Below, one piece after another: positions 13,987 through 54,448 of a stretch of 64,000 nt of DNA. The stretch covers positions 2,866,435-2,930,434 of the forward strand of contig OY282420.1 of NCBI GenBank assembly GCA_958295955.1, written 5' to 3'. The notes beneath the pieces were generated by a model. It was not told the DNA's origin. It searched no databases and saw only the letters and a list, made by a program, of their open reading frames with translations. The position numbers and the translations under genes were made by a program. This DNA is from an uncultured Bryobacterales bacterium. Its GTDB lineage: Bacteria > Acidobacteriota > Terriglobia > Bryobacterales > UBA6623. Numbering within the stretch: position 1 is the first letter of the stretch; each line of letters begins with the position of its first letter.

Positions 13987-14000
13987 TCGTCCTCCGCGCA

Positions 14001-15092
14001 TTACAACCGCTGAAAGGTTTTTTCGAGGAACCCCTTGATCAACGCGGTCTGCTCCCCCGCTTCGACCAGAAACGCGTCGTGTCCGTAATTGGACTCCAGC
14101 TCGACGTAGGCAACGTCGAGGTTCCTCGACCGCAGCGCCCGCACGATCTCTTGCGACTGATAGCTCGGGTACAGCCAATCCGAGGTGAAGCTCAAGACCA
14201 GAAACCGCGTGCCGCTGCCGTCGAAGCGGGCTTCCAGCGGGCCGCCGCCCGCGTTCAGATCGAAGGTGTCCATCGCGCGCGTGATGACGATGTACGAATT
14301 CGCGTCGAAACGGCTCACGAATTGACCGCCGCGGTAGCGCAGATAGCTTTCGACCTCGAACATGCTGTCTTCGTCGGCTAATTTGAGGCGGCGCCGGCCG
14401 AATTTTTCGCGCATCGAGTCGTCGCTCATGTAGGTGATGTGGCCGATCATGCGCGCGACGGCCAGACCGCGTTCGGGGTGCTTCGCGTCGTAGTAGTCGC
14501 CGCGGTGAAAATCCGGATCGGCCACGATCGCCTGCCTGCCGACTTCGTTGAAGGCGATCTGCTGCGCCGAATGGCGGTGAGTGGTGGCGATCGGCATGGC
14601 CGCGGCCACGGATTGGGGATACGAGACTGCCCATTCCAACGCCTGCATGCCGCCCATCGAACCGCCGGCGACCGCCAGCAGCTTCTCGATGCCCATCGAA
14701 TCAGTCAACTTCTTTTGCAAACGCACGATATCGCGGATCGAAACAGGCGGGAACTTCGATCCGTAAGGGTGTCCGCTCCGCGGATCGATCGAGCTCGGTC
14801 CCGTCGTGCCGCTGCAGCCGCCCAGCACGTTCGACGAAATCATGAAGTAGCGGTTGGTGTCGAATGCCTTGCCCGCGCCGATCATGTTGTCCCACCAGCC
14901 GGGCTTGCCGGTTTGCTCGCTGATGCCGGCGGCATGGGCATCGCCCGAAAATGCGTGCAGGATCAAGATGGCGTTCGATTTCTCGCGGTTGAGCTCGCCG
15001 TAGGTCTGATAGGCGATATCCACCGGTTCGAGCGCCCGGCCGCAATCGAGTTCCAGGGAATCGAAGCGCGCGGTGTGAGTGGTTACGATCAT
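14001..15092 (-). CDS. metX: Homoserine O-acetyltransferase
   Basis: MetX is an alpha/beta hydrolase-fold enzyme that acetylates homoserine with acetyl-CoA in methionine synthesis. It shows LHAFSGDAHAAG, GTTGPSSIDP, the nucleophile elbow GGSMGGMQALEW (Ser), LSFTSDWLYPSYQS (Asp) and NYGHDAFLVE (His). At 363 residues from the ATG at 15092 it has the family length; the longer ORF only adds a non-conserved leader. It stands alone; metW lies far away at 57042. A succinyl- rather than acetyl-transferase specificity cannot be excluded. Confidence 0.93.
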   Translation of the reverse strand: MIVTTHTARFDSLELDCGRALEPVDIAYQTYGELNREKSNAILILHAFSGDAHAAGISEQTGKPGWWDNMIGAGKAFDTNRYFMISSNVLGGCSGTTGPSSIDPRSGHPYGSKFPPVSIRDIVRLQKKLTDSMGIEKLLAVAGGSMGGMQALEWAVSYPQSVAAAMPIATTHRHSAQQIAFNEVGRQAIVADPDFHRGDYYDAKHPERGLAVARMIGHITYMSDDSMREKFGRRRLKLADEDSMFEVESYLRYRGGQFVSRFDANSYIVITRAMDTFDLNAGGGPLEARFDGSGTRFLVLSFTSDWLYPSYQSQEIVRALRSRNLDVAYVELESNYGHDAFLVEAGEQTALIKGFLEKTFQRL

Positions 15093-36654: not shown

Positions 36655-36662
36655 CGGATGTT

Positions 36663-39600: not shown

Positions 39601-40052
39601 GCCCTGCCGCCGGCGGGCGGCCCCTCCCGTTCCGCGGCGTTTCGCTCCTCTGCGCCGGGTTCGAGCGCATAATAGCCCCACGACACCGCAGCTTCGAGGC
39701 GCGATGTCTGCTCATCGACGAGGATGCTCAGCCCCAGCGATGACGGCAAGAAGACACGTTTGCCGCTGCCGCGGTCGGGCGTATTCGAGTCGTCGCCCCC
39801 GTGGGGAGGCTCGGCGGGCTCGTCGAATTCCTCTTCGCTGTCCTGCGTCCGCTGCTCGTGCGGCGCATCGGTCGGCGCCAGAAAGCCGGTCAGGTACCAG
39901 CGTGACGGCGCCTGCGGCAGGCGTTCGCGCTGCAAGTCCCGGTCGTGGGGCCGCGGGCCGATCAGGTCGAGCCGCAGCGCATCGACCAGCAGTTCGCGGA
40001 CCGCCGGGGAATCGGCGGGGGCCTGTCGAGCGGTCTTGGCGGCGGCGGTCAT
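36663..40052 (-). CDS. drmA: DISARM helicase DrmA
   Basis: A 1129-residue SF2-type helicase. Walker A is in LLFFPTGGGKTEAYLG, the Walker B-like motif in LIVQDELHLISGPLGTM, motif III in KIIASTATVR and the C-terminal helicase core in ALATNMISVGLDIMRLG with YIQATSRVGRD. A cysteine pair set (CPWCGAPF, SCADRHCDF) is inserted between the lobes, as in DrmA. The N-terminal about 400 residues are acidic and variable. DrmA-DrmB is the core of DISARM. It follows the PIN gene by 25 bp. Confidence 0.9.
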   Translation of the reverse strand: MTAAAKTARQAPADSPAVRELLVDALRLDLIGPRPHDRDLQRERLPQAPSRWYLTGFLAPTDAPHEQRTQDSEEEFDEPAEPPHGGDDSNTPDRGSGKRVFLPSSLGLSILVDEQTSRLEAAVSWGYYALEPGAEERNAAEREGPPAGGRADREGRPPWVRQPRAESVAVDLAAVPVGAPADYDIPGSGGLKLVCLVRPTTIRTPDGDRNIRAVSLFVVNRRPPAADGDLQDTAFAFQVEMSVETDLPLVPRRDLRGLDSDDWDERLADLHYRDAAEYAVGHNVAARADIADGECRRVHTEWMPRAGVERVEPARIAGVEFDMEKLGAVTDAAHAKQLLDPLVRQYRGWVDDQRTGAGAFTGRRKEVAGKLATRAAQAADRIQAGIDLLAEPAVLEAFGAANRAMAAAARRRRAQEEGKRPHQVDPPAWRPFQLAYILMNLRGIAEPTHSEREIVDLLFFPTGGGKTEAYLGLAAFTLVLRRLRHPDPAHRGLSVLMRYTLRLLTLDQLGRAAALICALELEREKTSETLGAWPFEIALWVGSAATPNYMGRRGDGNDNTARVKTLRFMRDSSREPPLPLRQCPWCGAPFDKHSFRLHPNSNEPTDLLVSCADRHCDFNGGRRHLPIVAVDEPIYRRLPAFMIATADKFAALPWTGATAKFFGGGAGGPRPPDLIVQDELHLISGPLGTMTGLYETAVDRLCTRSLGGAEVRPKIIASTATVRLASKQIRALFNRSSVQVFPPPGIDRRNSFFAEQVTEDEENTRLYLGIAAQGRGPKVIFLRAMTTLPAAAQAAWEAAGAAGADPNPADPYMTAVAYFNALRELGSARRIVEDEVGARLLTYAGRKRLDEAEGLFADRRIAFEPVELTSRVGAGDVAEARRRLALDFSKKGRVDAALATNMISVGLDIMRLGLMVVSGQPKTTSEYIQATSRVGRDPSRPGLVVTLLNIHKPRDRSHYERFANYHESFYRGVEATSVTPFSPRAMDRGLPAVTVALARLGIPALTPLSAAQDVADHDAETLEIAEAIAGRAQSHAAGLPAGFGDSVSGRVQSLIDDWAQLAREAGQGGAAFGYVRGRGVSTPLLREMIDRDRDMLNDTQLRFRAPRSLRDVEPGVLLGIKTPEGKDIA

Positions 40053-40077
40053 GAGCGGCGGATTCTTCTATCCTCGA

Positions 40078-40554
40078 TTATGCATGTTGCGGGCACAACT
40101 GCTTCACCGTGATCGAGAGATTGCGCAGGAGGGCGTGCTGTTGGCGCCAATCGCTGTCTGTCGCGTTGAGGATCAAGGCGTTCGCTGCAACGGCGACTGC
40201 CAGAAATTTGCGGTCGTCTCGATCAAGCGTGTTTTGCGGCAGTTCGGCGAAGCCCTGTTTGTCGTCGCCCACGGGCGTGACCGGGACAAGCGACACCCTT
40301 GACTGATCCGAGTGCATGTGATCGGAGACATATTTGAAGAACGCGTCGCCGACACCGGGTTGCCCCCGGAAGTTCAGGCGTCGCTTATACTCTTTCCAAA
40401 TCAAGTCTAGATCGTCCAGGATTACCACTGTCCCATCCGACCCAACATCGCGGATCGCCTTGGCGCACTCCAACTGGCACGGCTCGTCGGCATGAGTGCC
40501 GCGGCCATTGGCGGCAATTGGGACATTCGTGTCCACGACGACTTTGCCGCTCAT
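40078..40554 (-). CDS. PIN-domain nuclease-like protein
   Basis: A 158-residue protein. Acidic residues typical of the PIN active site are placed as expected: VVVDTNVPIAANG (Asp8), PCQLECAKAI (Glu), TLDRDDRKFLAVAVAA and LILNATDSDW (Asp cluster). PIN nucleases cut RNA or single-stranded nucleic acid and are often the effectors of toxin or abortive-infection modules. The start overlaps the ATPase stop (ATGA), so the two are translated together. The pair is spliced between drmMI and drmA and is not a standard DISARM gene. Confidence 0.8.
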   Translation of the reverse strand: MSGKVVVDTNVPIAANGRGTHADEPCQLECAKAIRDVGSDGTVVILDDLDLIWKEYKRRLNFRGQPGVGDAFFKYVSDHMHSDQSRVSLVPVTPVGDDKQGFAELPQNTLDRDDRKFLAVAVAANALILNATDSDWRQQHALLRNLSITVKQLCPQHA

Positions 40555-41915
40555 CGATCACCGTTGAGCTTGCGCTCCAGACCGGCAATTCTGATCGCGG
40601 AAATCTCGCCCAACTCGTCGCCGAAGAAGTTGTCGGGCCAATTCCGGATCTCGCCCCACTCATTGAGCTCGAGATCGGAGAGAGTTGCGGCGCCCTCGGT
40701 CATCGACGTGAAGTAGAGCTTGACATCCTCCGGGGCCGCCCGGCCTTCCGCAACGCGGCGTTGCAACCGCCGCAACAAGTGCTCGCTGTGACTCTCCACG
40801 ATGACCTGCACGTTGCGGGCGCCGGCAGCGGCGAGGATGACGTCGGCCAGACCGCTCTGGGCGGAAGGGTGCAGGTGGATTTCCGGATGTTCCAACAGAA
40901 CGATGGATCCCTCGGGAACGTAATAAAGGAGAACCAGCGCGGGCAGAACCTGAGACACGCCGAAACCGACGTCCGTCAACATCGCGGCGGCGCCCGCGTG
41001 GTCTTTTTTGACACGGACCCGGTAGAGCTTGGACCCCTCGGCGATCTCGCAGACATCGAACGAGTCGATCAGGCCGAGTTCCTTGAGCCAATGCGCAATC
41101 ATCTCCTGGAACGGCTTGTACCGTTTGCGTGTCCCGAGATTCCGCTGTTCCCGGCCTGCCGTTGCCGCCAGAATCGCATCGACCGTGCGTTCCCCGCGCG
41201 ACCCGACATCTGTCGGACCCGACCCGGCCCAGAGATACTCCCGCGCGGGACGCTCCCGCAGCGGACCAAGGTAGAAAATGCCGTCCATCAGGCGCTCGTA
41301 TTCGACCTCGAAGTCGCTGAGGAAGTCCGCGTTCCTATAGAACGCCCGCGTTTGCTCCGGGAAAAGATGGGTCTTGACCGGGCCTGGCAGCGGCCAGGCC
41401 CGCCCGCGGTTGCGGGCAAACCGGAAGCCGGCGGCGCCGCTCGCCGAAAGCTGAAATTCGGTCGATCCTTCACTCGCCGGCTCCAAGGTAAAAACCGCCT
41501 CCCCGAATTTGTACGTCAGGCGGTGGACCCAGGGTTTCACACGCCTCAGTCCCACCCCGCACCCCGTTTGCAGCCGTTTCGCTTGAAACAGAACGTCCGA
41601 TCGCCGACCTGCCGGATCGCCGACCCTCAACGTTTTGGGCAGGGTCCAGTCGAGGCGCCAGTCAATCCGCGCTTCTTCGTCGTGCCGGTGAACCAAGTCG
41701 TGGAAACTCCCCAGGTTGACAAGGGCGTTCGGACCTCCGAAGTCCAGCGCCAAGCCGCGGTCGGTCGCATTCTTGGTCTGCTTGAGCATGAGCAGGAACT
41801 GGAGCGCGCTGCTCTTGCCCGAGCTGTTGGCTCCGAACAGCCCGGTGACCTTGCCGAGCGGCATGTCCAGCTCGCGCCATGCCTTGAAGTTGGCGATCTT
41901 CAGTTTTTCAAGCAT
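40551..41915 (-). CDS. DUF3696-type AAA/ABC-like ATPase, partner of PIN nuclease
   Basis: A 454-residue SMC/ABC-like ATPase: Walker A GLFGANSSGKSSALQFL (residues 28-38), signature region TDVGFGVSQVLPAL, Walker B SIVLLEHPEIHLHP, H-loop VIVESHSEHLLRRL, and the C-terminal GEIRNWPDNFFGDELGEI that marks DUF3696. Such ATPases act as sensors or regulators of a linked nuclease in several anti-phage modules. It is followed with 4-bp overlap by the PIN gene. A short frame 41939-41992 (MTHSYGLGRR, then GIRPVR) ends just upstream and echoes the C-terminus of the ATPase at 50402. Confidence 0.85.
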   Translation of the reverse strand: MLEKLKIANFKAWRELDMPLGKVTGLFGANSSGKSSALQFLLMLKQTKNATDRGLALDFGGPNALVNLGSFHDLVHRHDEEARIDWRLDWTLPKTLRVGDPAGRRSDVLFQAKRLQTGCGVGLRRVKPWVHRLTYKFGEAVFTLEPASEGSTEFQLSASGAAGFRFARNRGRAWPLPGPVKTHLFPEQTRAFYRNADFLSDFEVEYERLMDGIFYLGPLRERPAREYLWAGSGPTDVGSRGERTVDAILAATAGREQRNLGTRKRYKPFQEMIAHWLKELGLIDSFDVCEIAEGSKLYRVRVKKDHAGAAAMLTDVGFGVSQVLPALVLLYYVPEGSIVLLEHPEIHLHPSAQSGLADVILAAAGARNVQVIVESHSEHLLRRLQRRVAEGRAAPEDVKLYFTSMTEGAATLSDLELNEWGEIRNWPDNFFGDELGEISAIRIAGLERKLNGDR

Positions 41916-41936
41916 GGTCTTCCCGCCAAACTTGCC

Positions 41937-41981
41937 GTTCAGCGAACGGGCCTTATTCCGCTTCTTCGTCCGAGGCCGTAT
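41937..41981. repeat. 45-bp segment also found at 50399-50443 (copy 1)
   Basis: 36 of 45 positions match the segment at 50399-50443, starting with 14 identical bases (GTTCAGCGAACGGG) and ending with GGCCGTAT. On the minus strand it encodes YGLGRRSGIRPVR and a stop, against YGLGRRGGVRPVR and a stop in the cassette ATPase. It looks like the leftover 3' end of a second copy of that gene, now just upstream of the ATPase-PIN pair. Confidence 0.6.
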
Positions 41982-42021
41982 GAGTGCGTCATCGTCGAAG
42001 TCTTTCGGATGCCGCTTGCCC

Positions 42022-44468
42022 TTAAGACATGATAGCCTTGCCGGTTACGGCGCTGGGGCGCCGTTCTTGGCGGGCGCGTTCGGCGTTCAGCGCCGGCAGG
42101 CGGGACAGGATTTCGTCGCGGACCGCGTCGGGCCAGCGGTGGCGCCAAGGCTTTTTCTTCTTGCCCCATGCTTCTTCGTCGACCGCGTAGTCGAGCAGGA
42201 ATGCGCAGTCGGTGGCGATATCCCGCCAGCCGTAGGTGTCGAGAACGGCGCGGTCCATCGCCGCGTGCAGCTCGCGCAGCTTGGCGATTTGCGGGCTGCG
42301 TTCCTCGGGGTCGTGGAAGCGGTTGTAGGTCTTGGTCAGGCCCTCGCCATTCGCGAGCATCAGCGCCGCGCGGAACTCGTAATATTCCCTGCCCGCGGCT
42401 TCCAGTGCCGGATGCGTTGCCCAGCCATCGGGGAAAGGGAAGGTCTCGAAACACTCGGAGGGGGTATAGCGAAGGTCGTCCTTCATCGACGAACCGAAGA
42501 ACCGCGCCCAGATTTCGTGGGCCCGGGATTGGAGGGCGCAGAAGGCGGCGTAGGTGTCATAGGGAAAGACAATCAGCCCGTCCGCGTAAATCATGTCTTT
42601 CGGCAGGAACGTAAATGCCGCTTGCTGCCCGACGCGGGAGATCGCCAACACGCGGCCCAGCCCAGTGATGGCGACGTGCAGTTTCGGGCGCGACCTTATA
42701 AACTGCCACCATTTCTCTCTCGCACCTCTGTCGTTTTGTGCATCCCGTTCCGGCTTCACCTTCTCCTCCACAATCGTCAGTAGTTCCGGCCAGTCCGCCG
42801 CTACTGGAGCGGGATAGTCCAGCGGCACGATTCCCGCCTGCAACCATTCTCTGCGTCGGTCTTCGCCGGCTTTCCGCCATTCTTGCCCCAAGTCTTCCCG
42901 GCGCAGCGGATAATCCCGGAAATTGACGACATAGCGGTGATGCTTGTGAGTCGGGCTTGTGTTGACTTCTTCGCCGCCGATGTAGGGAAAAATGATCTCC
43001 CGGTTGCGCGGGTTCTCGTCGATCAGCCGCTGCATCGCGGCGAGCGGAGTGGCAATGCCCTTACTGTCCGTGTCGTCGAAGGTGAAGCCCATGCCGAGAA
43101 CGATGCTGCCCTGAAAGCTTTTCCGCGCATTGGCCTTGAGCAGCGCCGGGTCGTCGTGGCCGCCGCGATGGAACAGGAACGCGGAGATCGTTTCCACTTC
43201 CCGGCCGTCGAGCTTCTTCGGGCCTGCCGGAAGCCCCTTGGCGATGTGGGCCACGCTGACGACAACGGCCGCCTCTCCGGGCCACTTGATCCTGCGGCGG
43301 GCGTTGTAGATGGCGCCGCCGTTCTTGCAGATCCAGCGCAGACCGGTCGCGCGCGTATCGCCTTGGCCGATGGTGTTCGTGGCGATGAGGCCGAGCCCAC
43401 CCCCCGTACGAAGAAGGGCGAACGAACGGCGAAAAAAATGGGCCGCGAGGTCGGCGTTGCCGTGGCTCTCCGCGTGCATCTGCTTGAGCCAGTCGGGGTA
43501 GCCCGCAACGTTCGCCTTCGCGACCGTGTTCTTGCCGGCGAACGGCGGGTTGCCGACAATGGAGTCGAAGCCCGGGTTCTCGCGGTTAAACACTTCAGGG
43601 AACTCGAGCTCCCAGTGGAACGGCGCGAGCGGCGGCTTCATGTCCGCAAGCGGGGCGGGAAGACGGCCGGCATTGCGCGCAACCAGGTGCGCATATTCGC
43701 TGCGTTTGCGCTCGCGCTCCTGCGGCTTGCTTGCGGCAAAGAACGCGGCCGGCGCCAGGTCGCCGAACCGGCGGACGCTTTGCATCTCGCGCTGCGCTTC
43801 CTGCCAAAGCTCGCGCAACTCCCGCTCGGGCGCCCCCTCGCCGGCAGCGCGGATCCGCCGGCGCAGTTCCGCGGCCCGCGCCGTATGCCCGCTCACCCGG
43901 ACGGTCTCGATGCCTTTCTGGAAGGGGGGCGCGTCCGCCTTCCAGTGGAACCCTTCGATCTGCCGCGGGGTCAGTCCCAGCAGCGAATCGCCGCGGCGCA
44001 GGGCGTGGTCGATGAAGGTGAACTCATGGTCGCCGGCGAACGTGGCCAGCCACAGCGACAGCCGCGCCAGATCGACGGCCATCGGGTTCTTGTCCACGCC
44101 GTAGAGGCAGCGCCGGCATCGTCCTCCGCTGGAACCACCCAAGTCGGCACCAGCACGGCGTGCAGTTCCGGCAGGGAGATTTCGAGTGCTTGGGCATGCG
44201 CGGCCGCATCCACGAGGTCGCCCTGCTCCCAGCCGAGATAGTCGCGGAACAGCCGCCGCAGATCGGGCGCGCGCCGGCGGGTTGCGGCGCCCTTGCCCTG
44301 TTCTTCCAACAACTCGCAGAAATCGCGCCGCCGGCCCGAGACGTTGCGGTCGGGGACGACTTGGGCGTCCGCCATGACCGCGGGCGCAACGACGAGGCCG
44401 ACAGGCTGGACGAAGCCGAGCCATTCCTGGTGCGCGAAGATCAGGCTGCGCCGTTCGCGGTCCGCCAC
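42022..44468 (-). pseudogene. drmMI: DISARM methyltransferase DrmMI with internal deletion and frameshift
   Basis: The N-terminal 110 or so codons from 44468 (MADRERRSLIFAHQEWLGF, LPELHAVLVPTWVVPAEDD) are in one frame. At about 44110-44130 the sequence jumps to the other frame with RRCLYGVDKNPMAVDLARL and then runs open to 42022. The segment that should carry the SAM-binding motif I (PxxGSGAFL-like) is missing. The catalytic NPPF is present (IVGNPPFAGKN), followed by a target-recognition region (ATGLRWICKNGG, RYTPSECFETFPFP). An intact DrmMI is clearly longer. As it stands the gene should make no active N6-adenine methylase. Confidence 0.75.
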
Positions 44469-44471
44469 GGC

Positions 44472-47315
44472 TTATCCCGTCCCCGGCCAGAGATAGACGA
44501 TGCCAAGAGGGTCGACGCGGGTTGCGCGGACGGTGTAAGCGTCGGCTATGCGCCCCGGCTCGGTTGCCGGTTCGTTTTGGATCGCCTTGAGCCGCTGCTC
44601 CCAGGCGCGGCGGTCCGCTTCACGCTGGCGTTGCTCGGCCGGATCGAAATCGAACGCCATCTGCCGGTCGTCGGCGCCGGCCGCCTCGGCGATCCTCTTG
44701 TGCCGGCGTTCGAGTAATGCGGTCATGCTGCGGCTTTCGCTCTGCGCCCTCTCGGCAAGGCGCGCCTGCGCCCGTTCGCACAGCGCGGCGGCGCGGCTTT
44801 CCAGATGTGGCCGGAGGTCCGCGATGTCGGCCTGCGCCGCCGCGGCGAGGCGGGCATAGATTCGCTGCGGGATACTGCTGCGTCCGGCCTCGTTGAGCGC
44901 CTCTTGCAGGGAGGCCGGCGTCGTCTGCTCGCCCGTCCGGCCGTAGGGGGCGAGAGCGCCCCGCCTCCGGCCGGGATCCACCCAGCGCGCGCGGCGCCGC
45001 CACTCGCCCATGCTCTCGCCGCGCCGCCTGCGTTCGCGCAATGTATCGAGCGCTGCCGCCCAGCCGGGATCGCGCGCCAGCGCATCGTCGTCGGCCGGGA
45101 AGTCGAAGGTGCGTGGCGCGCCCCTTTCCCGCGCGCGATTCGGGGCGGTCTCCGTGATTGCGGAAGCGCCGGCGAGCCGCAGGCTCATCGAAAGCGTCTG
45201 CCGGAACTGCGCCGCGGAGATGCCGATGTGCCGCCGCGACCGTTCCAGGCGGTTGCGCAGAGCGCCGACCTCTTCCTGCAGCTTGTCCTGTCGGAGGCGC
45301 GTATCCTCAAGCTCGGCGGCCGCGGTCTGCCGCCGATCGTCCACTGCCGCATTGCGGATGAAGTCCGCAAGCTCGTCGAGCTTGCCGCGCCGCATTCCCT
45401 CCTTGCCGATGTTTTCGGCCAAGCGGCCTTCGAGCACCCTGGCGACGCTGCCGAGTTCCTCGCGGATGCGTTCGGCCTTCTTGACCAGAACTTCGAGAAC
45501 GCGGTCTTCGGGCCGCTGCGTGTAAACGAAATAGCGGCAGAACACTTCGCCGGCCGGTTGCAGCTTGCGGTCGATACGGCCGTTGCGCTGGTCGAGGCGG
45601 CTGGGGTTCCAGGGCAGATCGAAGTGAAACAGATCGAGGCAGTGGCGTTGCAGGTTGAGCCCTTCCCGCGCAGCGTCCGTAGCAATAAGAATGCGCAGCG
45701 GATGATCTTGCGGCTCGATGTTGAAGGCGTGCTTGATATCCTCCCTCTTTTGCCGGGAGGTCATGCCGGAAAAAACGGCGATCCGCTCGACCGCTCTGTC
45801 GGTATGCGCGACTGCCTCGCGCAGGCGGAGTTCGAGATAACGGCGCGTATCCTCGTACTCGGTAAAGACGAGGAGGCGCCGGTCGTTCCATTCCGGCGGC
45901 GGCCCGGCCGTTGCGGACAGGCGCGGGCACATGTTCGCGCCGACCCAAGCGACGATCTTACGCATACGCGGATCGGCCGCATGGCGGTTGGCCTCGGCGA
46001 TCTCGCGCATCTCGTTGACGAGCGCCAGCTCGCGCTCGAGCGCCGCCCGCTTCGCCGCTCGGCCGGCGCCGCTCGATGCCGCCGTCGCCCTTGCCATGCG
46101 TTCTTCGAATTCGAGCTCGGATAGGTCGGGCGCGCCATCTGCCGTTTCAGTGCCGTCGTCCTCGCCTGCCGTCTCGAAAACCGCGGCGTCGGGATCGCCG
46201 CCGGCGGTCATTCGTTCGAGATCGGCAAGCAGCGTTTGGGACAGGTTCTCGGACTCGCGGGCTTCCTTCAGTGCGCGTTCGACGCTTTTGCGGTGGACTG
46301 CGAGCGTCCCCGCAAATGCTTCGATCGACGACAGCAGGCGCTTCTGCAAGCCGCCGATGACGAGCGCGCCCGCGGCCTGCCTCGACCGCGTTTCGTCCTT
46401 GAGCCGGTTTTCGCGTTCGAGGCGGTACGCATGCAGCTTCTCCGCCAGTACGAGCTCGGGCGCGTCCGTCGGCAGGCCGTCGATATCGATCTGCACCACG
46501 GCGCGCCGCGGGAAGCCGCCTTCGAGCGCGCGGACGTCGGATTTGAGGCGGCGCACCATGATTTCTTCGAGCTGTCCCTTGAGGACGCGCACGCCGCGGC
46601 AGAAACGCTGCGGGTCGAGGATTTCGAGCAGCGCCGAGAAACTGTTGGAGTGGCCGTTGTGCGGCGTGGCCGACAGGAACAGGCGGTGTTCGAAGCGCGG
46701 CGCGATGTCGCGGACGGCCCGCGTAATTTGGGAATCGATCGCATAGCGGACGCCGCTCGACGGCGCTGCATTGTGCGCCTCGTCGAGGATCAGCAGCGAT
46801 TGCGGCGCGAATTCGCCGAGCCAGTCGCGCAGTCCCGAGGCGTACGCTTCGTCGATGAGCAGGCGGTGCGACACCAGAAATCGCGAATGCGTCGTCCAGG
46901 GGTTGACCGAAAAACCGCGCTCGCGGCGCATGCGCGTCAGGTACGTCCGGTCGAGGATAGTGAAGGCGAGCCCGAAGCGTGTTTCCATTTCGTCGCGCCA
47001 CTGATCGAGCATGGAGGGCGGACAGGCAACGACGATCCGGTCGATACGACGGCGCAGCAGCAGTTCGCGCGCGATGAGGCCGGCTTCGATCGTCTTGCCC
47101 AGACCGACATCGTCGGCGATGAACAGGTTGACGCGCGGCAAGCGCAGCGCCTTGCGCAGCGGCTCGAGTTGATAGGCGTCGATGCGGATGCCGGCGCGGA
47201 ACGGTGCCTGAAAGAGGTTCGGGTCCGTCGCCGTCACGCAGTTCCATGACAGCGTGCGCAGGTAGGCGGCGAACAACTCGGGGTCATCGAAGCCTTTCTC
47301 GGCGACGGCGGACAA
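44472..47315 (-). CDS. drmD: DISARM SNF2-like helicase DrmD
   Basis: A 947-residue SNF2-family ATPase that heads class 1 DISARM. Motif I is FIADDVGLGKTIEAGL, Ia is IVVACPPSMLDQWRDEM, motif II LLILDEAHNAAP, motif III LFLSATPHNGH, and the second lobe has LLVFTEYEDTRRYLE, ILIATDAAREGLNLQRHC and RLDQRNGRIDRKLQP. A long coiled, Arg/Glu-rich C-terminal part follows (LRQDKLQEEVGALRNRL). It is 3 bp upstream of drmMI. The DUF3604 paralogue 3 gene ends 49 bp before its start. Confidence 0.88.
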   Translation of the reverse strand: MSAVAEKGFDDPELFAAYLRTLSWNCVTATDPNLFQAPFRAGIRIDAYQLEPLRKALRLPRVNLFIADDVGLGKTIEAGLIARELLLRRRIDRIVVACPPSMLDQWRDEMETRFGLAFTILDRTYLTRMRRERGFSVNPWTTHSRFLVSHRLLIDEAYASGLRDWLGEFAPQSLLILDEAHNAAPSSGVRYAIDSQITRAVRDIAPRFEHRLFLSATPHNGHSNSFSALLEILDPQRFCRGVRVLKGQLEEIMVRRLKSDVRALEGGFPRRAVVQIDIDGLPTDAPELVLAEKLHAYRLERENRLKDETRSRQAAGALVIGGLQKRLLSSIEAFAGTLAVHRKSVERALKEARESENLSQTLLADLERMTAGGDPDAAVFETAGEDDGTETADGAPDLSELEFEERMARATAASSGAGRAAKRAALERELALVNEMREIAEANRHAADPRMRKIVAWVGANMCPRLSATAGPPPEWNDRRLLVFTEYEDTRRYLELRLREAVAHTDRAVERIAVFSGMTSRQKREDIKHAFNIEPQDHPLRILIATDAAREGLNLQRHCLDLFHFDLPWNPSRLDQRNGRIDRKLQPAGEVFCRYFVYTQRPEDRVLEVLVKKAERIREELGSVARVLEGRLAENIGKEGMRRGKLDELADFIRNAAVDDRRQTAAAELEDTRLRQDKLQEEVGALRNRLERSRRHIGISAAQFRQTLSMSLRLAGASAITETAPNRARERGAPRTFDFPADDDALARDPGWAAALDTLRERRRRGESMGEWRRRARWVDPGRRRGALAPYGRTGEQTTPASLQEALNEAGRSSIPQRIYARLAAAAQADIADLRPHLESRAAALCERAQARLAERAQSESRSMTALLERRHKRIAEAAGADDRQMAFDFDPAEQRQREADRRAWEQRLKAIQNEPATEPGRIADAYTVRATRVDPLGIVYLWPGTG

Positions 47316-47364: not shown

Positions 47365-50232
47365 TTAGCGGGCGCCGCCGGTTGTCACCCAGATGGGGGA
47401 CGACCAGGCGATCTGGCCGTCGTCCTGTTGCACCCTTACGTAGTAATAGCTCTCTCCCGGGCTTGGGTCGGCGTCGGTGAACTCGAACGAGACGTCGCGG
47501 TCGAGGTCGTGGCGGGTCAGGGCGAACTCCCGGTTCTTGACGATGTCGATTTGGCGGATCGGCTCCGTGCCGATTACCCGCACCGACAAGCGAAAGTCGC
47601 CGGATACGGTTACGATGTCGCCCTGCAGGTACTCCTTGCCGCCGGACCGCAGCCGGTAGTCCAGCACGATGTTGTCCGTCGCGCCGTAGGAGTGCCGCTT
47701 GCGCATGGCGTCGAGCAGCCCTTCGCGGCCGGCATCCTCTGAAATCGTGCAGGCGTAGGAAATATGCGTCGAAACGTGATCCGACGCCGCTTGCACGCCC
47801 AGCTTGTAGCCCTTGGCCCAGGCGTTCCAGACGTAGCCCGCGGGGCGGAAGCCGCCCGGCGCCGAGCGCGGATTGCCGGCGTACGCGGCTCGCGGCGCGC
47901 CTTCGTATTCGGCCGAGACGCGGTCGCCTTGATAGATCTCGACCAGCGGCTCGACTGCGGGGTCGTTGTCGCGCCAGTCGGTGCCCATGCTGGTCGCCGA
48001 GGTGTGCGAAATGGCGATGCCGTCGTTCTCCTTGAGGTAAGCGTAAAGGTCTTTCGTCCCCACGGGCTCGGGGTTGGCGAAGCGCCTGGTGACTTCCTCG
48101 GAAGAGAAGGGAAACAGCGGCGAGCCGAACTCCTCGCGCGAAATGCGGAACGGGCGGACGCCGCGCTTGGCGAAGATGATGTTGCGGTGTCCGTTGGGGT
48201 AGCGCACGCTGCGCTCGTAGGCGAACAGCGGCGTAAAGCTGCCTGGCAGATGGAAGCAGTCGGCGAACTGCTGCAGTAGAAAGTCGTGGTATTCCACGTC
48301 GGGGCCGCCCAGGTAGTTGTGCTCCGAGTTGGCGTAGAAGTCGAGGCTTGCCGCGTCGATGGCGTAGCGGTAGGCTTGCAGCAGGGAGCCGTCGTTGAAG
48401 CCGTCCATCGAAAACTCGGTGTGGCGGTGGGTGTCGCCGCGGTAAATCTTGTAGGTTTTGCCGCCGGAGACGATTTCGTAGTTGCGGATCGTTTCGAGGT
48501 CTCGGGTCTCGTTCGGATGGATGGGGTAAACCGTGATCTCCGGCTGCACGCGCGGTTGCAGGGCGTGCTCGCCACGGCGGGGCGCCGCCGGAACTTTGGC
48601 CACGCGGATGTCGTACTGCTCGGCCAGCATATCGGCAAAATCGCGGTTGTCGGTCGGCCAAGCGGCGGCGATGCCGCCGTCGCCGGTTTGCGCGAAACCG
48701 CTGCGCATGTCCAGGCGCCCTCGGCTGTGCGGGAAATAGACCGGCTCGCTCCAGGATCCGCCGGCGTAACGCACGCCCCACAACTCCCAAGTGGCGTAGA
48801 AAGCGTAAAAGTCTGAAACGATGTCCTGGATGCGCGGGTTGCGGCGCCGGAAGAATACCCAGACGCCCCCGTTGCCGTCGGCTTGAATCGTCGGAGAGTC
48901 GCTCCTGTCTCCGGGCAGGTCGGCAGGCAGCGCCGCCTCGAGCGCAACGGTCGGCTCAAGCCGGCGGCCGCCGTCGAGGACGGCGACGGCCATCGAGCGC
49001 CACGCGTACAGGCGTGTGCCTTCCTGCTCGAGGCCGAAGCCGTCGTCCTTGCCCCAGAGGGTTCCGCTTTCGCTCCAGGCCGCCCACAGGCGGTCGTCGG
49101 CATCGCAGGTCAGCGTAACGTGGGCTTCGAACTTCGGGGTATCGGCCAGCGGCCGGACGTCCTCCCAGCCTGCGCCGTTGTAGCGGCGCGTCAGGATGTC
49201 GTAGTTGCCCTTGTCGTAGGTGTCCCAAGCGACGTAAACGTTGCCGCTGCCGTCGGCGGCGACCGCCGGCTCCCAATCGTTGGCTTGAGACGTAGAGACT
49301 TTTTCCGCGGGCGACCACCGTTCGCCGTCGTGGTGGCGCGCGAAGATGTCGGAGCGGCCTTCGCGGAACCCTTGCCACACGACCCAGACGCGCCCCTCGG
49401 AATCCGTCGCCACGTTGTGGTAGAGGTCCGGTTCGGCAGCGCTCGTGAGGCGCTCGACCGCCGACCAGCGATCCCCGGCGAAGCTGCGCGCATAGAGGTC
49501 GCGGTTGCCGTCGACCTGGTCGGACCAGACTACCCGGATGCGGCCGTCGCCGCCGCGCGCGGCTTTCGCCAGGAAAACGTCGCCGGGCTTTTCGGTCACC
49601 GTTTCGATCTCGCCCCAGGAGCGCCCGTCGTAATGGTGCAGCAGGACTTCGTTCGCCCCGCCGCGGTAGGCGGTCCAGGCGACCCATAACTGCTCGTCCG
49701 GTCCGCTGGTTATGGACGCAAAGTCGTTTTGATGCTCGGCGCCGGATATCTTCTGCGTGGCGAGCGTTCTGTCCACGACCGCCCGCCCCCCGAGGAACCG
49801 CTGCGTCCGGCCAAGCGGCAGGTTGCGCAGATCGACCCGGAAGTTGCCCTGTTCGGTCTCGAACGCGACGCGCGTCCGTCCGCGGCTGCGGACGGCGGCC
49901 ACCAGACCCGGGCTGAAAATGTTGACGGGAATGCCCGTTACGGGCTGCGGCTTCGTCGGCGGATACCGAAAGTTCGGCCCTTGCCAGGAGGCCATTTCCC
50001 AGGAGGCGCCCGCAATACTGTCGTCCGGCTTGGGGCGCAGACTGGCGAGGCCGGCCGGTTCTCCGCCCGAGACGGAGAGTTTGCCGTCCCATCGCGTCGG
50101 CTGCTTGTCCCCGACGCCGAGCTGCACGCGGATGGAGACAAGTTGCGGATCGTCGAAAGGCTCCTGGGCATGGAGCGCGCAAGCGCCCGCCAACGCGAGC
50201 AGCGCGGTTAAACTGAAACGACCGGCCGACAT
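47365..50232 (-). CDS. Exported propeller-DUF3604/PHP-like protein, paralogue 3
   Basis: A 955-residue member: signal peptide (SLTALLALAGACALHAQ), N-terminal domain (VSIRVQLGVGDKQPTRWDGKL), blades with LWVAWTAYRGG, IRVVWSDQVDGNRDLYARSF, VWVVWQGFREGRSDIFARH, VYVAWDTYDKGNYDILTRRY and LWAAWSESGTLWGKD, and the hydrolase domain with RGDTHRHTEFSMDGFNDGS, ANSEHNYLGG, ISHTSATSMGTDW and AASDHVSTHISYAC. The putative metal ligands are conserved. The start at 50232 gives a good signal peptide; the ORF to 50319 is not needed. The gene lies between two defence loci but resembles paralogues 1 and 2 far more than any defence gene. Confidence 0.8.
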   Translation of the reverse strand: MSAGRFSLTALLALAGACALHAQEPFDDPQLVSIRVQLGVGDKQPTRWDGKLSVSGGEPAGLASLRPKPDDSIAGASWEMASWQGPNFRYPPTKPQPVTGIPVNIFSPGLVAAVRSRGRTRVAFETEQGNFRVDLRNLPLGRTQRFLGGRAVVDRTLATQKISGAEHQNDFASITSGPDEQLWVAWTAYRGGANEVLLHHYDGRSWGEIETVTEKPGDVFLAKAARGGDGRIRVVWSDQVDGNRDLYARSFAGDRWSAVERLTSAAEPDLYHNVATDSEGRVWVVWQGFREGRSDIFARHHDGERWSPAEKVSTSQANDWEPAVAADGSGNVYVAWDTYDKGNYDILTRRYNGAGWEDVRPLADTPKFEAHVTLTCDADDRLWAAWSESGTLWGKDDGFGLEQEGTRLYAWRSMAVAVLDGGRRLEPTVALEAALPADLPGDRSDSPTIQADGNGGVWVFFRRRNPRIQDIVSDFYAFYATWELWGVRYAGGSWSEPVYFPHSRGRLDMRSGFAQTGDGGIAAAWPTDNRDFADMLAEQYDIRVAKVPAAPRRGEHALQPRVQPEITVYPIHPNETRDLETIRNYEIVSGGKTYKIYRGDTHRHTEFSMDGFNDGSLLQAYRYAIDAASLDFYANSEHNYLGGPDVEYHDFLLQQFADCFHLPGSFTPLFAYERSVRYPNGHRNIIFAKRGVRPFRISREEFGSPLFPFSSEEVTRRFANPEPVGTKDLYAYLKENDGIAISHTSATSMGTDWRDNDPAVEPLVEIYQGDRVSAEYEGAPRAAYAGNPRSAPGGFRPAGYVWNAWAKGYKLGVQAASDHVSTHISYACTISEDAGREGLLDAMRKRHSYGATDNIVLDYRLRSGGKEYLQGDIVTVSGDFRLSVRVIGTEPIRQIDIVKNREFALTRHDLDRDVSFEFTDADPSPGESYYYVRVQQDDGQIAWSSPIWVTTGGAR

Positions 50233-50272
50233 GGCAGGAATTATATCAATGCGCCGCCGCTGCGGAATGCGC

Positions 50273-50376
50273 GTTTTTCCCCGCTTATGGGAACGCGCCG
50301 CGCCCGGCGGAACGTCCAATCGGCAGAAGCGGCCATGAATTGGCTCGAGAGCGAATGGTTCGAGCGGCTGCGGCTG
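50273..50376. repeat. About 105-bp direct repeat, left copy, flanking the three-gene cassette
   Basis: It matches 53697-53803 at most positions, including GGGAACGCGCCGCG, AGCGGCCATGAATTGGCTCG and GCGAATGGTTCGAGCGGCTG. It contains the upstream region and the first 14 codons of the gene at 53762. The match ends abruptly at CGGCTG, after which the sequence leads into the 3' end of the cassette ATPase gene. Confidence 0.85.
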
Positions 50377-50418
50377 GGGTCCTTCTCAACAGGCGAGTCG
50401 TTCAGCGAACGGGTCTGA
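50335..50418 (+). pseudogene. Truncated duplicate of the 5' end of the gene at 53762
   Basis: A 27-codon frame reads MNWLESEWFERLRL, identical to the start of the gene at 53762, then GSFSTGESFSERV and a stop inside the 3' end of the opposing ATPase gene. It is the gene fragment left on the far side of the cassette and probably not functional. Confidence 0.8.
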
Positions 50419-50443
50419 CTCCGCCTCGCCTCCCAAGGCCGTA
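50399..50443. repeat. 45-bp segment also found at 41937-41981 (copy 2)
   Basis: This is the 3' end of the cassette ATPase gene at 50402 and the bases beyond its stop. It shares 36 of 45 positions with the region just upstream of the ATPase-PIN pair, see the entry at 41937. Confidence 0.6.
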
Positions 50444-51856
50444 TCCTACCCTGAAGACATCCGGGATATTGCCCCGTCCGTCGCGCATACGCATAAAGAC
50501 ACCCAAAGATTCAAGATCTGCGCGAACACCCGCGGGGCCTTGCGAGATGCGGCTGGGGGGCAGCTTCACTTCTTGTTGTTTCATTTCTTCTGTGAGGCGT
50601 TCTATGACGCCTTCATTTTGCCAGCGATCCGCGATCTCGCGAAATACGCAAGGTACGACCATGCCTTCAAGCGGCCGCATGGCCCGATCCACCCATGGAT
50701 AGTCTTCCCTGAGTTCGCTGACCCGTATTTTCGAAGCCTCCTGCACGCCCCGCTTGATACTGTCGTAATGCAAGGAGTACTCGTGATCCGAGCGATTGGT
50801 TGCTGTATCTTCGGCAGCCGTTCGAAGCGCGGCGAGAAACGAGCGCGGGCTTACTCTGCCCTCTGTGTCCGCCAAGTGGTTTGGAACCCATGTGTAGGGG
50901 AAACCGCGTCTGGGGTTCGTGCCCATCCATGGGCCGGAAATGACATGAAATTTCTTTCTTTGATACTCTTCGCTGAGGATCGAGCGCCGTGGTAAGTCGA
51001 ACAGGAGCGCCTGCCTGTCGAGATTTACCGGCGCCGAATCTTCATCTCCAAGAAATGTCTGAAAAACTTCGCCGTTCTCGCCGTTCGTGAGGCTGTGCCA
51101 CAGGAGGCCATAAAGCTCGCGGCGGGGCCAACTCAGCTCAACGGCCGATGAAAGGATTTTCGATGCGTCCGGAAAATCGGCGATTTCGGTCTCGTTGACT
51201 TGGTCCGAGCGTAAGAACATTTTCACTCGAAGACGTTTGTACGAACGCATTTCAAGCGCGGTTTGCATCAGACCGCGAATCGCCCGATACATGCTCTGCC
51301 AGTCGTCGGCGCAACGGTCCAGGGCATCGAAGAGGATCAGAAAATAAATGCCCTTTCGGTCGGATTCATCGTCGCGTTGCTGAAACATGCGCTCGACCGA
51401 TTCCGGCTGGTTGTCGATGTATTGTGCGCGCTCCAGCCATGTATCTTGCCGCCTCAGAGGGTGGTTATCCGGCGCGAGTTGCCAAGCTTGCACCGTCCGC
51501 CAGACGATCCTGGGATCGAAGTCTTGACGCATCAGCTGTCCCAACACATCCTTGCTTGGGTACTCATCCGGAGCCGGCTTGACGCCGAACCCTGTCCGTA
51601 CCTCGGTGTCCACGCTCAATTTCGACCGGCTGTCCTGACTAGCGACCCATCGGCGGACATCCAGATCTTGAAGAGCGCTCCACCAAAAAGTCTTTCCGGC
51701 GCCGCGCATGCCGGTCACAAGCGGATTGTCCGGATCTATCGCTTTGATATGGGACCGCGGCAGATACACATGCTCCGGCGGCGGCGCTTCACCGTGGCTT
51801 GTCCCTTCCGGCAAATCGGCGAGCGCTTGGCGCGCCTTCCCAACGTCAATCGCCAT
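50402..51856 (-). CDS. P-loop ATPase (KAP/AAA-like), third gene of defence-like cassette
   Basis: A 484-residue ATPase with Walker A VTGMRGAGKTFWWSAL (about residues 47-57), a Walker B-like IYFLILFDALDRCADDW, and helical regions with WLERAQYID and FREIADRWQNEGVIERL. The arginine-like sensor RVKMFLRSDQVNE follows. It resembles STAND/KAP-type ATPases but is not identified further. The ATG at 51856 overlaps the upstream stop as TGATG; a GTG at 51859 is an alternative. Lower GC than the flanks. The C-terminus YGLGRRGGVRPVR is echoed at 41939. Confidence 0.7.
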   Translation of the reverse strand: MAIDVGKARQALADLPEGTSHGEAPPPEHVYLPRSHIKAIDPDNPLVTGMRGAGKTFWWSALQDLDVRRWVASQDSRSKLSVDTEVRTGFGVKPAPDEYPSKDVLGQLMRQDFDPRIVWRTVQAWQLAPDNHPLRRQDTWLERAQYIDNQPESVERMFQQRDDESDRKGIYFLILFDALDRCADDWQSMYRAIRGLMQTALEMRSYKRLRVKMFLRSDQVNETEIADFPDASKILSSAVELSWPRRELYGLLWHSLTNGENGEVFQTFLGDEDSAPVNLDRQALLFDLPRRSILSEEYQRKKFHVISGPWMGTNPRRGFPYTWVPNHLADTEGRVSPRSFLAALRTAAEDTATNRSDHEYSLHYDSIKRGVQEASKIRVSELREDYPWVDRAMRPLEGMVVPCVFREIADRWQNEGVIERLTEEMKQQEVKLPPSRISQGPAGVRADLESLGVFMRMRDGRGNIPDVFRVGYGLGRRGGVRPVR

Positions 51857-53157
51857 CACAACGCCTTTCTATCTTTGCCGATGTCGATGAGCCGATCGAA
51901 ACGGTTCAGGAATTGCGTGTAAGCCTGTGCTACGGTTACCCGTTCCAAATCGCGCAGCGAGGCGCCGGCGGCAAGACCGCGCGTCCAGTGAATGGCGATC
52001 GGATTATGCGGCGCGTCTTCGTCGTTCAGCGCGAAAGAGAACTCATTGCCGGGAACGGCGGACGGCGCCGCATAGTCGTACAGACGATCCCGGAATAAAT
52101 CCCATGACCGCTCTCGAAAATCTTGCAGGTATCGTTCCGTGTCGATCTCCGGAGTCAATGCGGAGACGATTGAGAGACGTTCCCTGATCTTTGTTGCCAA
52201 GTCGTCGTTCTGCCAATGACGAAAGAGGATATCGTAGTCGGTCCAGTTGCTCTCCGAATCGACGGCAAACAGCAAGACCTGAGCGTTGAGGTCGGTGACG
52301 GTCGCCGCCGCGATGTCGTGTAAGCCGCTGCGGCTTTCCAGCAGGACGACGGTCGGCTCGAAATCGCTCTCCTCCAGGCGTTGTAACAAATGTTCCAAAC
52401 GTTCCGGCCAAGATCTGTCGCAGGTATCCATATAGACACGCCCCAACTTGGCCAGATATTCTCCGGGTTTGTCGCCGTGCGCCGGCGCTACGCGCACGTC
52501 CCCTTCGAAATCCTGCGCCCATGCCGGGGCGGCAGTCATTTGTTCGAGTACGCGGTCGCCTTGTCCGACCAGATCTTCCACGAACCAGTCAGTGACGCCG
52601 AACTTGGGCCGCGCGTGGGCATCGAGCATCGCCGAAGACAGCCCCGGGGATTCCAGATACAGATCGACGACCAGCACCCTTTCGCCTTTGCGCGACAGAT
52701 GCCAGGCGAGAACGGCGGCAGTGGTGCTGCGTCCTACGCCGCCCTTGACCGAGAACAGCGTGCAGCGCCCCGGCGATTCCGTATGGAGCGAATCGCTGAC
52801 CGTCCACCAGTCTCGACCGGTCACCAAACGATCGACCCAATATACGCGGTCAAAGCCGCTGACTTTTTGTGCCGTACGGTCAAGAATTTCCAGCATGGCG
52901 GGGGCCGTGAATAGCACGGCGTCTTCCGGCAAACAGCCGTGCGCGCCCAAGACTTCGCGCAAACGTCCGGCGAGATGTTGCAGTGCCTCGCGGCAAGTTT
53001 CGTCCGTTTCGAGTTCGTTCGAGACCGACAGATGCACTATGCCTGACAGGTCCCGCACCAAGTAAAGAGGGAGGATGCCGTCCGGGAGATTTGCAGCATG
53101 GAGTACGCTGTCAGCGCGGTGGCGCATGTCATCGAACGAGACGAAATTGTTGCTCAT
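51856..53157 (-). CDS. KGGVGR-variant ParA-like ATPase, second gene of cassette
   Basis: A 433-residue protein. An N-terminal domain of about 145 residues (FVSFDDMRHRADSVL, LPDGILPLYLVRDLSG) precedes a ParA/MinD-type ATPase: deviant Walker A FSVKGGVGRSTTAAVLAWHL, VLVVDLYLESPGLSSAML, then GVTDWFVEDLVGQGDRVLEQM, VAPAHGDKPGEYLAKLGRVYMD, VVLLESRSGLHDIAA. The Arg in place of Lys/Gly spacing in KGGVGRS is the KGGVGR variant. Its stop and start overlap with both neighbours, so the three genes are one coupled unit. Its role is unknown; the N-terminal domain may be a sensor. Confidence 0.8.
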   Translation of the reverse strand: MSNNFVSFDDMRHRADSVLHAANLPDGILPLYLVRDLSGIVHLSVSNELETDETCREALQHLAGRLREVLGAHGCLPEDAVLFTAPAMLEILDRTAQKVSGFDRVYWVDRLVTGRDWWTVSDSLHTESPGRCTLFSVKGGVGRSTTAAVLAWHLSRKGERVLVVDLYLESPGLSSAMLDAHARPKFGVTDWFVEDLVGQGDRVLEQMTAAPAWAQDFEGDVRVAPAHGDKPGEYLAKLGRVYMDTCDRSWPERLEHLLQRLEESDFEPTVVLLESRSGLHDIAAATVTDLNAQVLLFAVDSESNWTDYDILFRHWQNDDLATKIRERLSIVSALTPEIDTERYLQDFRERSWDLFRDRLYDYAAPSAVPGNEFSFALNDEDAPHNPIAIHWTRGLAAGASLRDLERVTVAQAYTQFLNRFDRLIDIGKDRKAL

Positions 53158-53576
53158 ACCCGGCCGTCCTCCGCCGCGTGTTGCACCATGCGGCAAACCC
53201 CCTGAGCCGCTTTGCGACGGCGCTCTACTTTCGATTTCTCCAAATGGCGGCGGTGGGCATATCGGTTGTGGTGCGACCAGTCGGCGAACGGCGAGCCGCT
53301 TGGGAGCAGGTTCAGGTACCGCGCACCGTGCCGCCCCGAGGCAAAGGTTCTAAAAAGCGGCCAAAGGCGCTGCACATGCCGTCGATATTGCGTTTCGCGC
53401 GGCGTCCCGGTCTCATCGACAGGCATCCCCAAGGTTTTCATCACTGTTTTCAATCCGCATTCCGCGCTGAACCCGTACAACTGATCGGCATTTGACCAAC
53501 GGGCGTGATCGAAGAGTAACTCTGCATCTTCCCAGTGACGGCGGTGCGCGTCGCAGAAATCGGCAGTGTGCGCCAT
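53154..53576 (-). CDS. HEPN-like protein, first gene of cassette
   Basis: A 140-residue helical protein: HRRHWEDAELLFDHARWSN, ADQLYGFSAECGLKTVMKTLG, and a C-terminal NRYAHRRHLEKSK. The segment resembling xxLYGxxAECxLKxxM and the Arg-x(4-6)-His pattern (RYAHRRH) fit HEPN domains, which are often RNA nucleases or their partners in defence systems. This assignment is by pattern only. The ATG at 53576 is chosen; its stop overlaps the next start (ATGA at 53154-53157). Confidence 0.55.
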   Translation of the reverse strand: MAHTADFCDAHRRHWEDAELLFDHARWSNADQLYGFSAECGLKTVMKTLGMPVDETGTPRETQYRRHVQRLWPLFRTFASGRHGARYLNLLPSGSPFADWSHHNRYAHRRHLEKSKVERRRKAAQGVCRMVQHAAEDGRV

Positions 53577-53696
53577 CGTCGAAATTTTCAGTCGGGCGGT
53601 TGTGGGCGGGGCACTGAGGCTACCGCCTGCCTTCAATACATCATAATCTTGTCGGCTTTTGCGCCGCTGTTGCCGGATTTCGCCGCGGGAGCGAGC

Positions 53697-53803
53697 ATTC
53701 GTTCTTTCCCGCTTGAGGGAACGCGCCGCGCCGGCGCAGCGTCCAACGAGGAAGAGCGGCCATGAATTGGCTCGAAAGCGAATGGTTCGAGCGGCTGCGG
53801 CTG
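53697..53803. repeat. About 105-bp direct repeat, right copy, flanking the three-gene cassette
   Basis: It holds the upstream region and first 14 codons of the gene at 53762 and corresponds to 50273-50376. The two copies differ at about a tenth of positions, for example CTCGAA versus CTCGAG, so the duplication is not fresh or the copies have different origins. Confidence 0.85.
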
Positions 53804-54448
53804 TTGGTGAAGATCACTCTCGCCGCCGCTCTGCTCTATGTCGGCTACACCTTCTACGTGCGCTACCGGCTGGCGACCGTGAAGCCGCCGGAAGCCCCGG
53901 TTGTCGATCTGCACGACGACCTGTACGTACACCCCCGGAAGTCGTACGTGAGCGATTTCGAGTCGGCCAAGCGCAGGCTCACGGGTACGCCGCTATGGGT
54001 GAAGGAGGGCTACCGTTGGACCTACGAACCCGGCGGCCGGCTGTTCGCGCCGCTGGAGAAGATCGTCCCCGTCGATGTCGTCAGACGCGGCGGCAGCGTC
54101 TATCTCGCGTTCGAGAAAAACGGCAAGCAGGCGCGCGTTGCCGTCGGCGCGCCTGAGCGGGTTTACGTGGACGAGATGTTTTTCATCGAAGACCCGCGCG
54201 AGCTCTACGACCACTGGACCGAGGAGATGTGGGCCAAGGTCGAAAACCACGAAGTCGAGGCGGGGATGAGCGAGTTCCAGATCGCGTTCGCTCTCGGAGT
54301 GGGGCAGTTGATGCGGCAATCGGCGAATGCGGCGACCCGAATAGTGGACTACACCGCGTGCCTGCCGGCGGGTTGTGCGCCGGTGCGGGTTACTTACAAG
54401 CGGAATGTTGCGCAGAGCGTCGAGCCGATCCGACCGCCTGACGAGTAG
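53762..54448 (+). CDS. Membrane-anchored protein of unknown function
   Basis: A 228-residue protein with one N-terminal helix (LLVKITLAAALLYVGYTFYV) and a soluble part (DDLYVHPRKSYVSDFESAKRRL, LWVKEGYRWTYEP, VYVDEMFFIEDPRELYDHW, FQIAFALGVGQLMRQS). It has two close cysteines (TACLPAGCAPV). No family is recognised. A GAAGAGCGGCC run precedes the ATG. Its 5' end is duplicated at 50335, on the other side of the cassette. It converges on the DUF4202 gene and overlaps it by 59 bp. Confidence 0.75.
   Translation: MNWLESEWFERLRLLVKITLAAALLYVGYTFYVRYRLATVKPPEAPVVDLHDDLYVHPRKSYVSDFESAKRRLTGTPLWVKEGYRWTYEPGGRLFAPLEKIVPVDVVRRGGSVYLAFEKNGKQARVAVGAPERVYVDEMFFIEDPRELYDHWTEEMWAKVENHEVEAGMSEFQIAFALGVGQLMRQSANAATRIVDYTACLPAGCAPVRVTYKRNVAQSVEPIRPPDE

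Follow-up and report, generated by a model that had tools for sequence, protein, structure and literature searches.

A 64,000-nucleotide stretch from an uncultured Bryobacterales bacterium (contig OY282420.1, positions 2,866,435 to 2,930,434), hereafter the window, carries on its minus strand a cassette of three overlapping genes, A, B and C, at window positions 50402 to 53576. The encoded proteins are the three components of PDC-M28, a phage-defence candidate entry of PADLOC-DB 2.0.0. This cassette is a real, conserved and mobile defence candidate, and we consider it rather likely to be an abortive-infection system, in which a HEPN effector (A) is held and released by the ATPase pair B-C. The defence role is one that we infer from genomic context. 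Our contribution is a proposal for the mechanism, with named residues, together with a recurrent link to the methyltransferase genes of BREX-2 and DISARM operons.

The three genes form a conserved PDC-M28 cassette

Gene A runs from an ATG at 53576 to a stop at 53154 and encodes a protein of 140 residues (PADLOC PDLC04558); gene B runs from an ATG at 53157 to a stop at 51856 and encodes 433 residues (PDLC04559); and gene C runs from an ATG at 51856, or from an alternative GTG at 51859, to a stop at 50402 and encodes 484 residues (PDLC04561). The PADLOC matches score 166.9 bits for A (PDC-M28A), 444 bits for B (PDC-M28B) and 571 bits for C (PDC-M28C), and cover each model almost from end to end. 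M28A, M28B and M28C are thus encoded together, with protein content and gene order as in PDC-M28, and no tested feature differs. As a member of PDC-M28, the cassette is not a new kind of system, and the initial annotation erred in stating that it matches none that can be named. PDC-M28 is itself a list entry only. PADLOC entries of this class stem from a guilt-by-embedding screen, most of whose core set await validation (PMC12988326), and no paper naming or characterizing PDC-M28 was found in the literature searched, nor any on KGGVGR or Sll1717.

Other parts of the initial annotation stand. It had described three translationally coupled genes of lower G+C content than their surroundings, and both junctions were found on the minus strand, as GT-ATGA-GC between A and B and GT-TGATG-GC between B and C. 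The G+C content is 58.6% in the cassette against 65.0% in the remaining window, and only 0.3% of windows of the same length are equally low. All three genes are under purifying selection, with ratios of non-synonymous to synonymous substitution rates of 0.03–0.27 in pairs of close homologues. The order A-B-C recurs in at least six phyla (Acidobacteriota, Pseudomonadota, Gemmatimonadota, Entotheonella, Deinococcota, Actinomycetota, Cyanobacteriota). Since their order is kept in distant bacteria and selection acts on each of them, the genes are not chance open reading frames.

Gene A has a predicted HEPN fold and a non-canonical putative active site

The AlphaFold2 (AF2) model of A, built on 11 homologues, has a mean predicted local distance difference test score (pLDDT) of 88.6 and a predicted template modelling score of 0.86, and shows an all-alpha HEPN fold. 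Its best 16 VIA matches, with Z scores of 12.7 to 8.0, are HEPN domains or HEPN-type nucleotidyltransferase partners. The top matches, at Z 12.7–11.1, are all HEPN domains; they include TT1696 (12.7), AF0298 (12.6) and the HEPN domain of sacsin (12.2), with HEPN toxins following at Z 9, although values near 13 may be background for helical bundles. Foldseek gave weak E-values (0.12 and up), yet its ranks 1–8 are all HEPN. Because Z scores alone can be background, the assignment rests on this unbroken run of HEPN entries and on Pfam matches among the homologues of A, where AbiV (PF18728) is the most frequent (6 of 19; best E-value 2.4e-4) and HEPN is found in 3 of 19. Two homologues are also labelled HEPN in public records. 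Pfam gives no match for the window protein, to AbiV or to any other family, and a sequence search of solved structures returned no relative of A or of C. The HEPN fold first suggested for this protein is supported.

The catalytic motif is a different matter. The initial annotation had pointed to RYAHRRH, in which Arg105 and Tyr106 are indeed invariant, but a histidine 4–6 residues after Arg105, as the canonical Rx4-6H motif of HEPN RNases demands, is present in only 7 of the 33 homologues and missing in the other 26. We rejected RYAHRRH as the catalytic motif; A could, with the canonical RNase motif absent, be a non-catalytic RNA-binding protein. Conservation lies elsewhere: Arg13, His67, Trp100, Arg105 and Tyr106 are invariant (33/33), and Glu39 and Lys43, spaced as E39xxxK43, are kept in all 32 readable homologues. 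In the predicted model, His67 precedes the helix formed by residues 68–80. AbiV and the HEPN-T proteins of the AF0298 type likewise have no histidine after the arginine; they carry a conserved histidine within the insert that separates helix 2 from helix 3 as well as an Ex3[KR] motif, together a possible alternative RNase site (PMC3710099). His67, Arg105, Glu39 and Lys43 of A fit this description, and the active site is probably formed by His67/Arg105 with Glu39/Lys43 in an AbiV/AF0298-type arrangement, which makes an RNase activity of A plausible.

AbiV of Lactococcus, which probably inhibits translation (PMC3231927), resembles A in its HEPN fold, in having no Rx4-6H histidine and in its conserved alternative histidine before the arginine. 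The two differ in size and setting: AbiV has 201 residues and no operon partners listed in PMC3710099, whereas the shorter A is encoded in an operon with two ATPases. A frameshift of gene A in one homologous locus (L042) was considered as a natural inactivation and discarded; it falls within a C homopolymer of a metagenome assembly, its sister L045 is intact, and it is likely a sequencing error.

Genes B and C encode a pair of P-loop ATPases

Gene B encodes a ParA/MinD-like ATPase of the KGGVGR-variant type, as initially annotated. It belongs to the NCBIfam family NF047398 of KGGVGR-motif variant ATPases (166.9 bits, cutoff 90) and also matches ParA/MinD profiles across the P-loop. The KGG-x-GR motif is invariant in all 22 sequences, so that the signature lysine is kept and the P-loop lysine is replaced by arginine. 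An N-terminal domain of about 125 residues has no match to any family, and the single-sequence AF2 model of B was unusable (pLDDT 36). Since the PDC-M28B profile also collects ordinary MinD/ParA proteins, and matches in every genome of our phylum survey, only high scores were used there.

Gene C likewise bears out its annotation as a P-loop ATPase, with a Walker A motif (GMRGAGKT) and, in the alignment, a Walker B motif (LFDALD). It scores 58.4 bits against the Sll1717 family NF047389 over residues 140–414, below the cutoff of 75, and by this sequence comparison is a relative rather than a member of that family. The homologues of C match AAA_16 (11 of 23) and NACHT (3 of 23), all weakly (best E-value 1e-5); the window protein has neither match. 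These homologue matches suggest a possible place among the AAA_16/STAND-like ATPases. On the tree of C, the loci L043, L046 and L047 fall into one clade, and all three encode B and C as a single fused protein, the mark of one fusion event. From this fusion, we propose that B and C also touch where they are separate proteins.

Cassettes are embedded in DNA-modification defence operons

Homologous cassettes lie within BREX-2 and DISARM operons, next to an Hma-type helicase, on plasmids and on prophage-like contigs, in line with the defence association that had been suspected from the window. Five loci are inside BREX-2 operons and on the same strand. In four of these (L050, L051, L053, L054), the cassette stands between pglX and the downstream pgl genes, the contig of L051 ending there, and in L059, from Streptomyces, it stands between pglW and pglX. 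Two further loci involve DISARM: L046 has the cassette between DrmMI and DrmA, and L047 has it directly before DrmD. On the tree of C, embedding in BREX-2 and embedding in DISARM each have at least two origins. In L046, L051 and L054, the start of gene A overlaps the stop of the methyltransferase gene by 4 bp (ATGA), so that translation of the cassette is coupled to that of the methyltransferase in BREX-2 and in DISARM alike.

Other defence genes are found at further loci. L042 and the near-identical L045 represent a cassette adjoining the Hma-type helicase and HEC-01. In L076 (4696–13548), the cassette is flanked on one side by a PLD-SNF2 helicase and on the other by a DUF1156 protein, itself a probable DNA methyltransferase; this locus adds a third type to the methyltransferase-helicase operons in which the cassette resides.

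The cassette is patchily distributed and mobile

Within the window's order, C was detected in 4 of 100 genomes, and within its family in 1 of 18, the window's own. Plasmids, conjugative ones among them, carry the cassette, in several cases with a tyrosine recombinase alongside. It is likewise found on ten IMG/VR viral contigs, in eight of which all three genes were detected, and homologues are present on prophage-like contigs. A tblastn search of the INPHARED phages gave no homologue of C, and neither did a blastn search of E. coli with the Enterobacter gene as query. On the Enterobacter plasmid of L055, a TIR-domain gene (13769–14572) adjoins the cassette with a tyrosine recombinase near it, and these surroundings are possibly a hotspot for defence cargo.

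More distant homologues come in other arrangements. In L078 (2104–18868), from an Acidobacteriota genome, a second pair of B and C homologues of that genome occurs without gene A and adjoins Schlafen AlbA_2/HATPase proteins, a PHP-like SMC-type ATPase, a PglZ-domain protein and a helicase; this is possibly a related system with another effector. A very distant homologue of C on a viral contig (L073, 6119–9008) is preceded by a row of small ankyrin-repeat genes in place of A and B. Streptomyces plasmids (L084, L085, L086) have distant homologues of C, with A and B not detected.

Flanking repeats and the neighbouring DISARM locus

In the window, direct but imperfect repeats of about 124 bp lie on either side of the cassette. 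The left copy (50252–50376, plus strand) duplicates the upstream region and first 14 or so codons of a gene at 53762, of which it is a truncated 5' end; the right copy (53681–53803, plus strand) lies at the intact gene (53762–54448; MNWLESEWFERLRL...). The repeat is present only twice in the whole genome, as these two copies, which fits acquisition of the cassette by recombination. An ancestral empty junction was not demonstrable among relatives carrying the gene at 53762, because these have different neighbours.

The initial annotation had placed the cassette beside DISARM. The DISARM locus is real: PADLOC matches identify DrmB (34846–36654), DrmA (36663–40052), DrmMI (42022–44424) and DrmD (44472–47315) on the minus strand, together spanning 34846–47315. 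The two are not immediately adjacent, however, as a gene for an exported-looking DUF3604 protein of 984 residues (47365–50319) intervenes. The window's DISARM has another candidate of two genes embedded between DrmA and DrmMI, where PADLOC matches HEC-03A/B (40078–41915), an OLD/AriA-like ATPase with a partner of 158 residues that has no Pfam match. The same DrmA–DrmMI interval is occupied in L046 by the PDC-M28 cassette.

Proposed mechanism and alternative explanations

In the abortive-infection mechanism that we propose, A would be a toxic effector, predicted to cleave RNA or to block translation in some other manner through the non-canonical site formed by His67/Arg105 and Glu39/Lys43. B and C would form a complex that keeps A inactive, and A would be let go when the nucleotide state changes or when a bound phage or damage signal changes; we infer the complex, its role and its trigger. 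The cassette is part of a BREX-2, DISARM or other methyltransferase-helicase operon in many genomes, where it would provide a second line once the first is defeated. Its placement behind a methyltransferase, sometimes co-translated with it, may be likened to that of PrrC inside EcoprrI, where an NTPase-controlled HEPN effector likewise serves as second line within a modification-type defence operon (PMC3710099); PrrC differs in being one ABC-ATPase–HEPN protein with the canonical motif. Backup HEPN effectors of BREX loci (PMC12839542) are also similar, being second-line effectors in modification-type operons, but in its main text that survey presents stand-alone HEPN genes and no ParA-like gene or three-gene cassette. 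Tentatively, and as a possibility short of probable, PDC-M28 may be a guard of DNA-modification immunity, in which a HEPN suicide effector with the non-canonical site, restrained by B and C and coupled in translation to the methyltransferase, is fired when a phage inhibits or bypasses BREX-2, DISARM or similar systems.

Several observations weigh against the proposed mechanism. A has no canonical HEPN RNase motif, profile searches gave no gene A match in L047/L077, L078 and L073, and the distant C homologues on Streptomyces plasmids are solitary. These latter findings suggest that A is dispensable in some cases. Within the window itself, a 3-kb unrelated gene separates DISARM from the cassette. 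Homologues are not consistently found outside defence islands, the outcome that the initial annotation had set as counting against a defence system, though about one third of the loci have no recognized defence neighbour, with only larger neighbours scanned.

The cassette might instead be a toxin-antitoxin or plasmid-maintenance module that stabilizes mobile elements and has no anti-phage role, with A as HEPN toxin and B together with C as antitoxin or regulator. HEPN-ParA/Soj dyads have been postulated as toxin-antitoxin pairs (PMC3710099), and cassettes frequently reside on plasmids or prophage-like contigs, often beside a recombinase. The published dyad (MAE_18760; Anantharaman et al. 2013, PMC3710099) is indeed similar in setting a HEPN gene, as proposed toxin, beside a gene for a ParA-like ATPase, as proposed regulator. 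It has, however, a HEPN protein of another family with Rx4-6H intact, and consists of two genes, without a third gene of the AAA_16/NACHT-like type, whereas Rx4-6H is unconserved in A and the PDC-M28 operon has three genes. Two large ATPases would also be unusual in a toxin-antitoxin module, and plasmid maintenance leaves unexplained both the embedding in BREX-2, DISARM and methyltransferase-helicase operons and the coupling to methyltransferase genes. We regard this explanation as unlikely.

It is a little less likely again that A acts as an adaptor, binding RNA or protein without being catalytic, and that the B-C ATPase machine produces the effect, for example by translation arrest or DNA interference. 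The missing Rx4-6H histidine in most homologues of A would agree with such a role, as would the persistence of B and C, or of C alone, where A was not found (L047, L078, L073) and the solitary distant homologues of C. Those in L078 and L073 are, however, very distant, and the invariance of His67, Arg105, Tyr106 and Arg13, with Glu39/Lys43, exceeds the needs of the fold and matches the proposed alternative active site.

It is highly improbable that the cassette is an accessory to BREX-2 and DISARM that contributes specificity or regulation, controlling for instance the methyltransferase, and has no independent defence function. Its position inside five BREX-2 operons and, in L046, L051 and L054, immediately after the methyltransferase gene with an overlap would suit such an accessory. 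Most loci, however, have no BREX or DISARM within the stretch that was examined, and complete A-B-C cassettes kept by purifying selection also occur on their own, which argues that the cassette can work by itself.

Implications

PDC-M28 is one of many computer-listed defence candidates, for which we found no proposed mechanism. The present analysis yields a testable one, comprising an effector fold, likely active-site residues, two paired ATPases joined by fusion in one clade, and a place immediately after the methyltransferase genes of BREX-2 and DISARM that recurs among loci. If the guard function is true, PDC-M28 would be a two-ATPase counterpart of PrrC that is common to several unrelated first-line systems. 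If both protection and the second-line role hold, this would show how defences of the modification type come to use one shared backup effector across unrelated operons.

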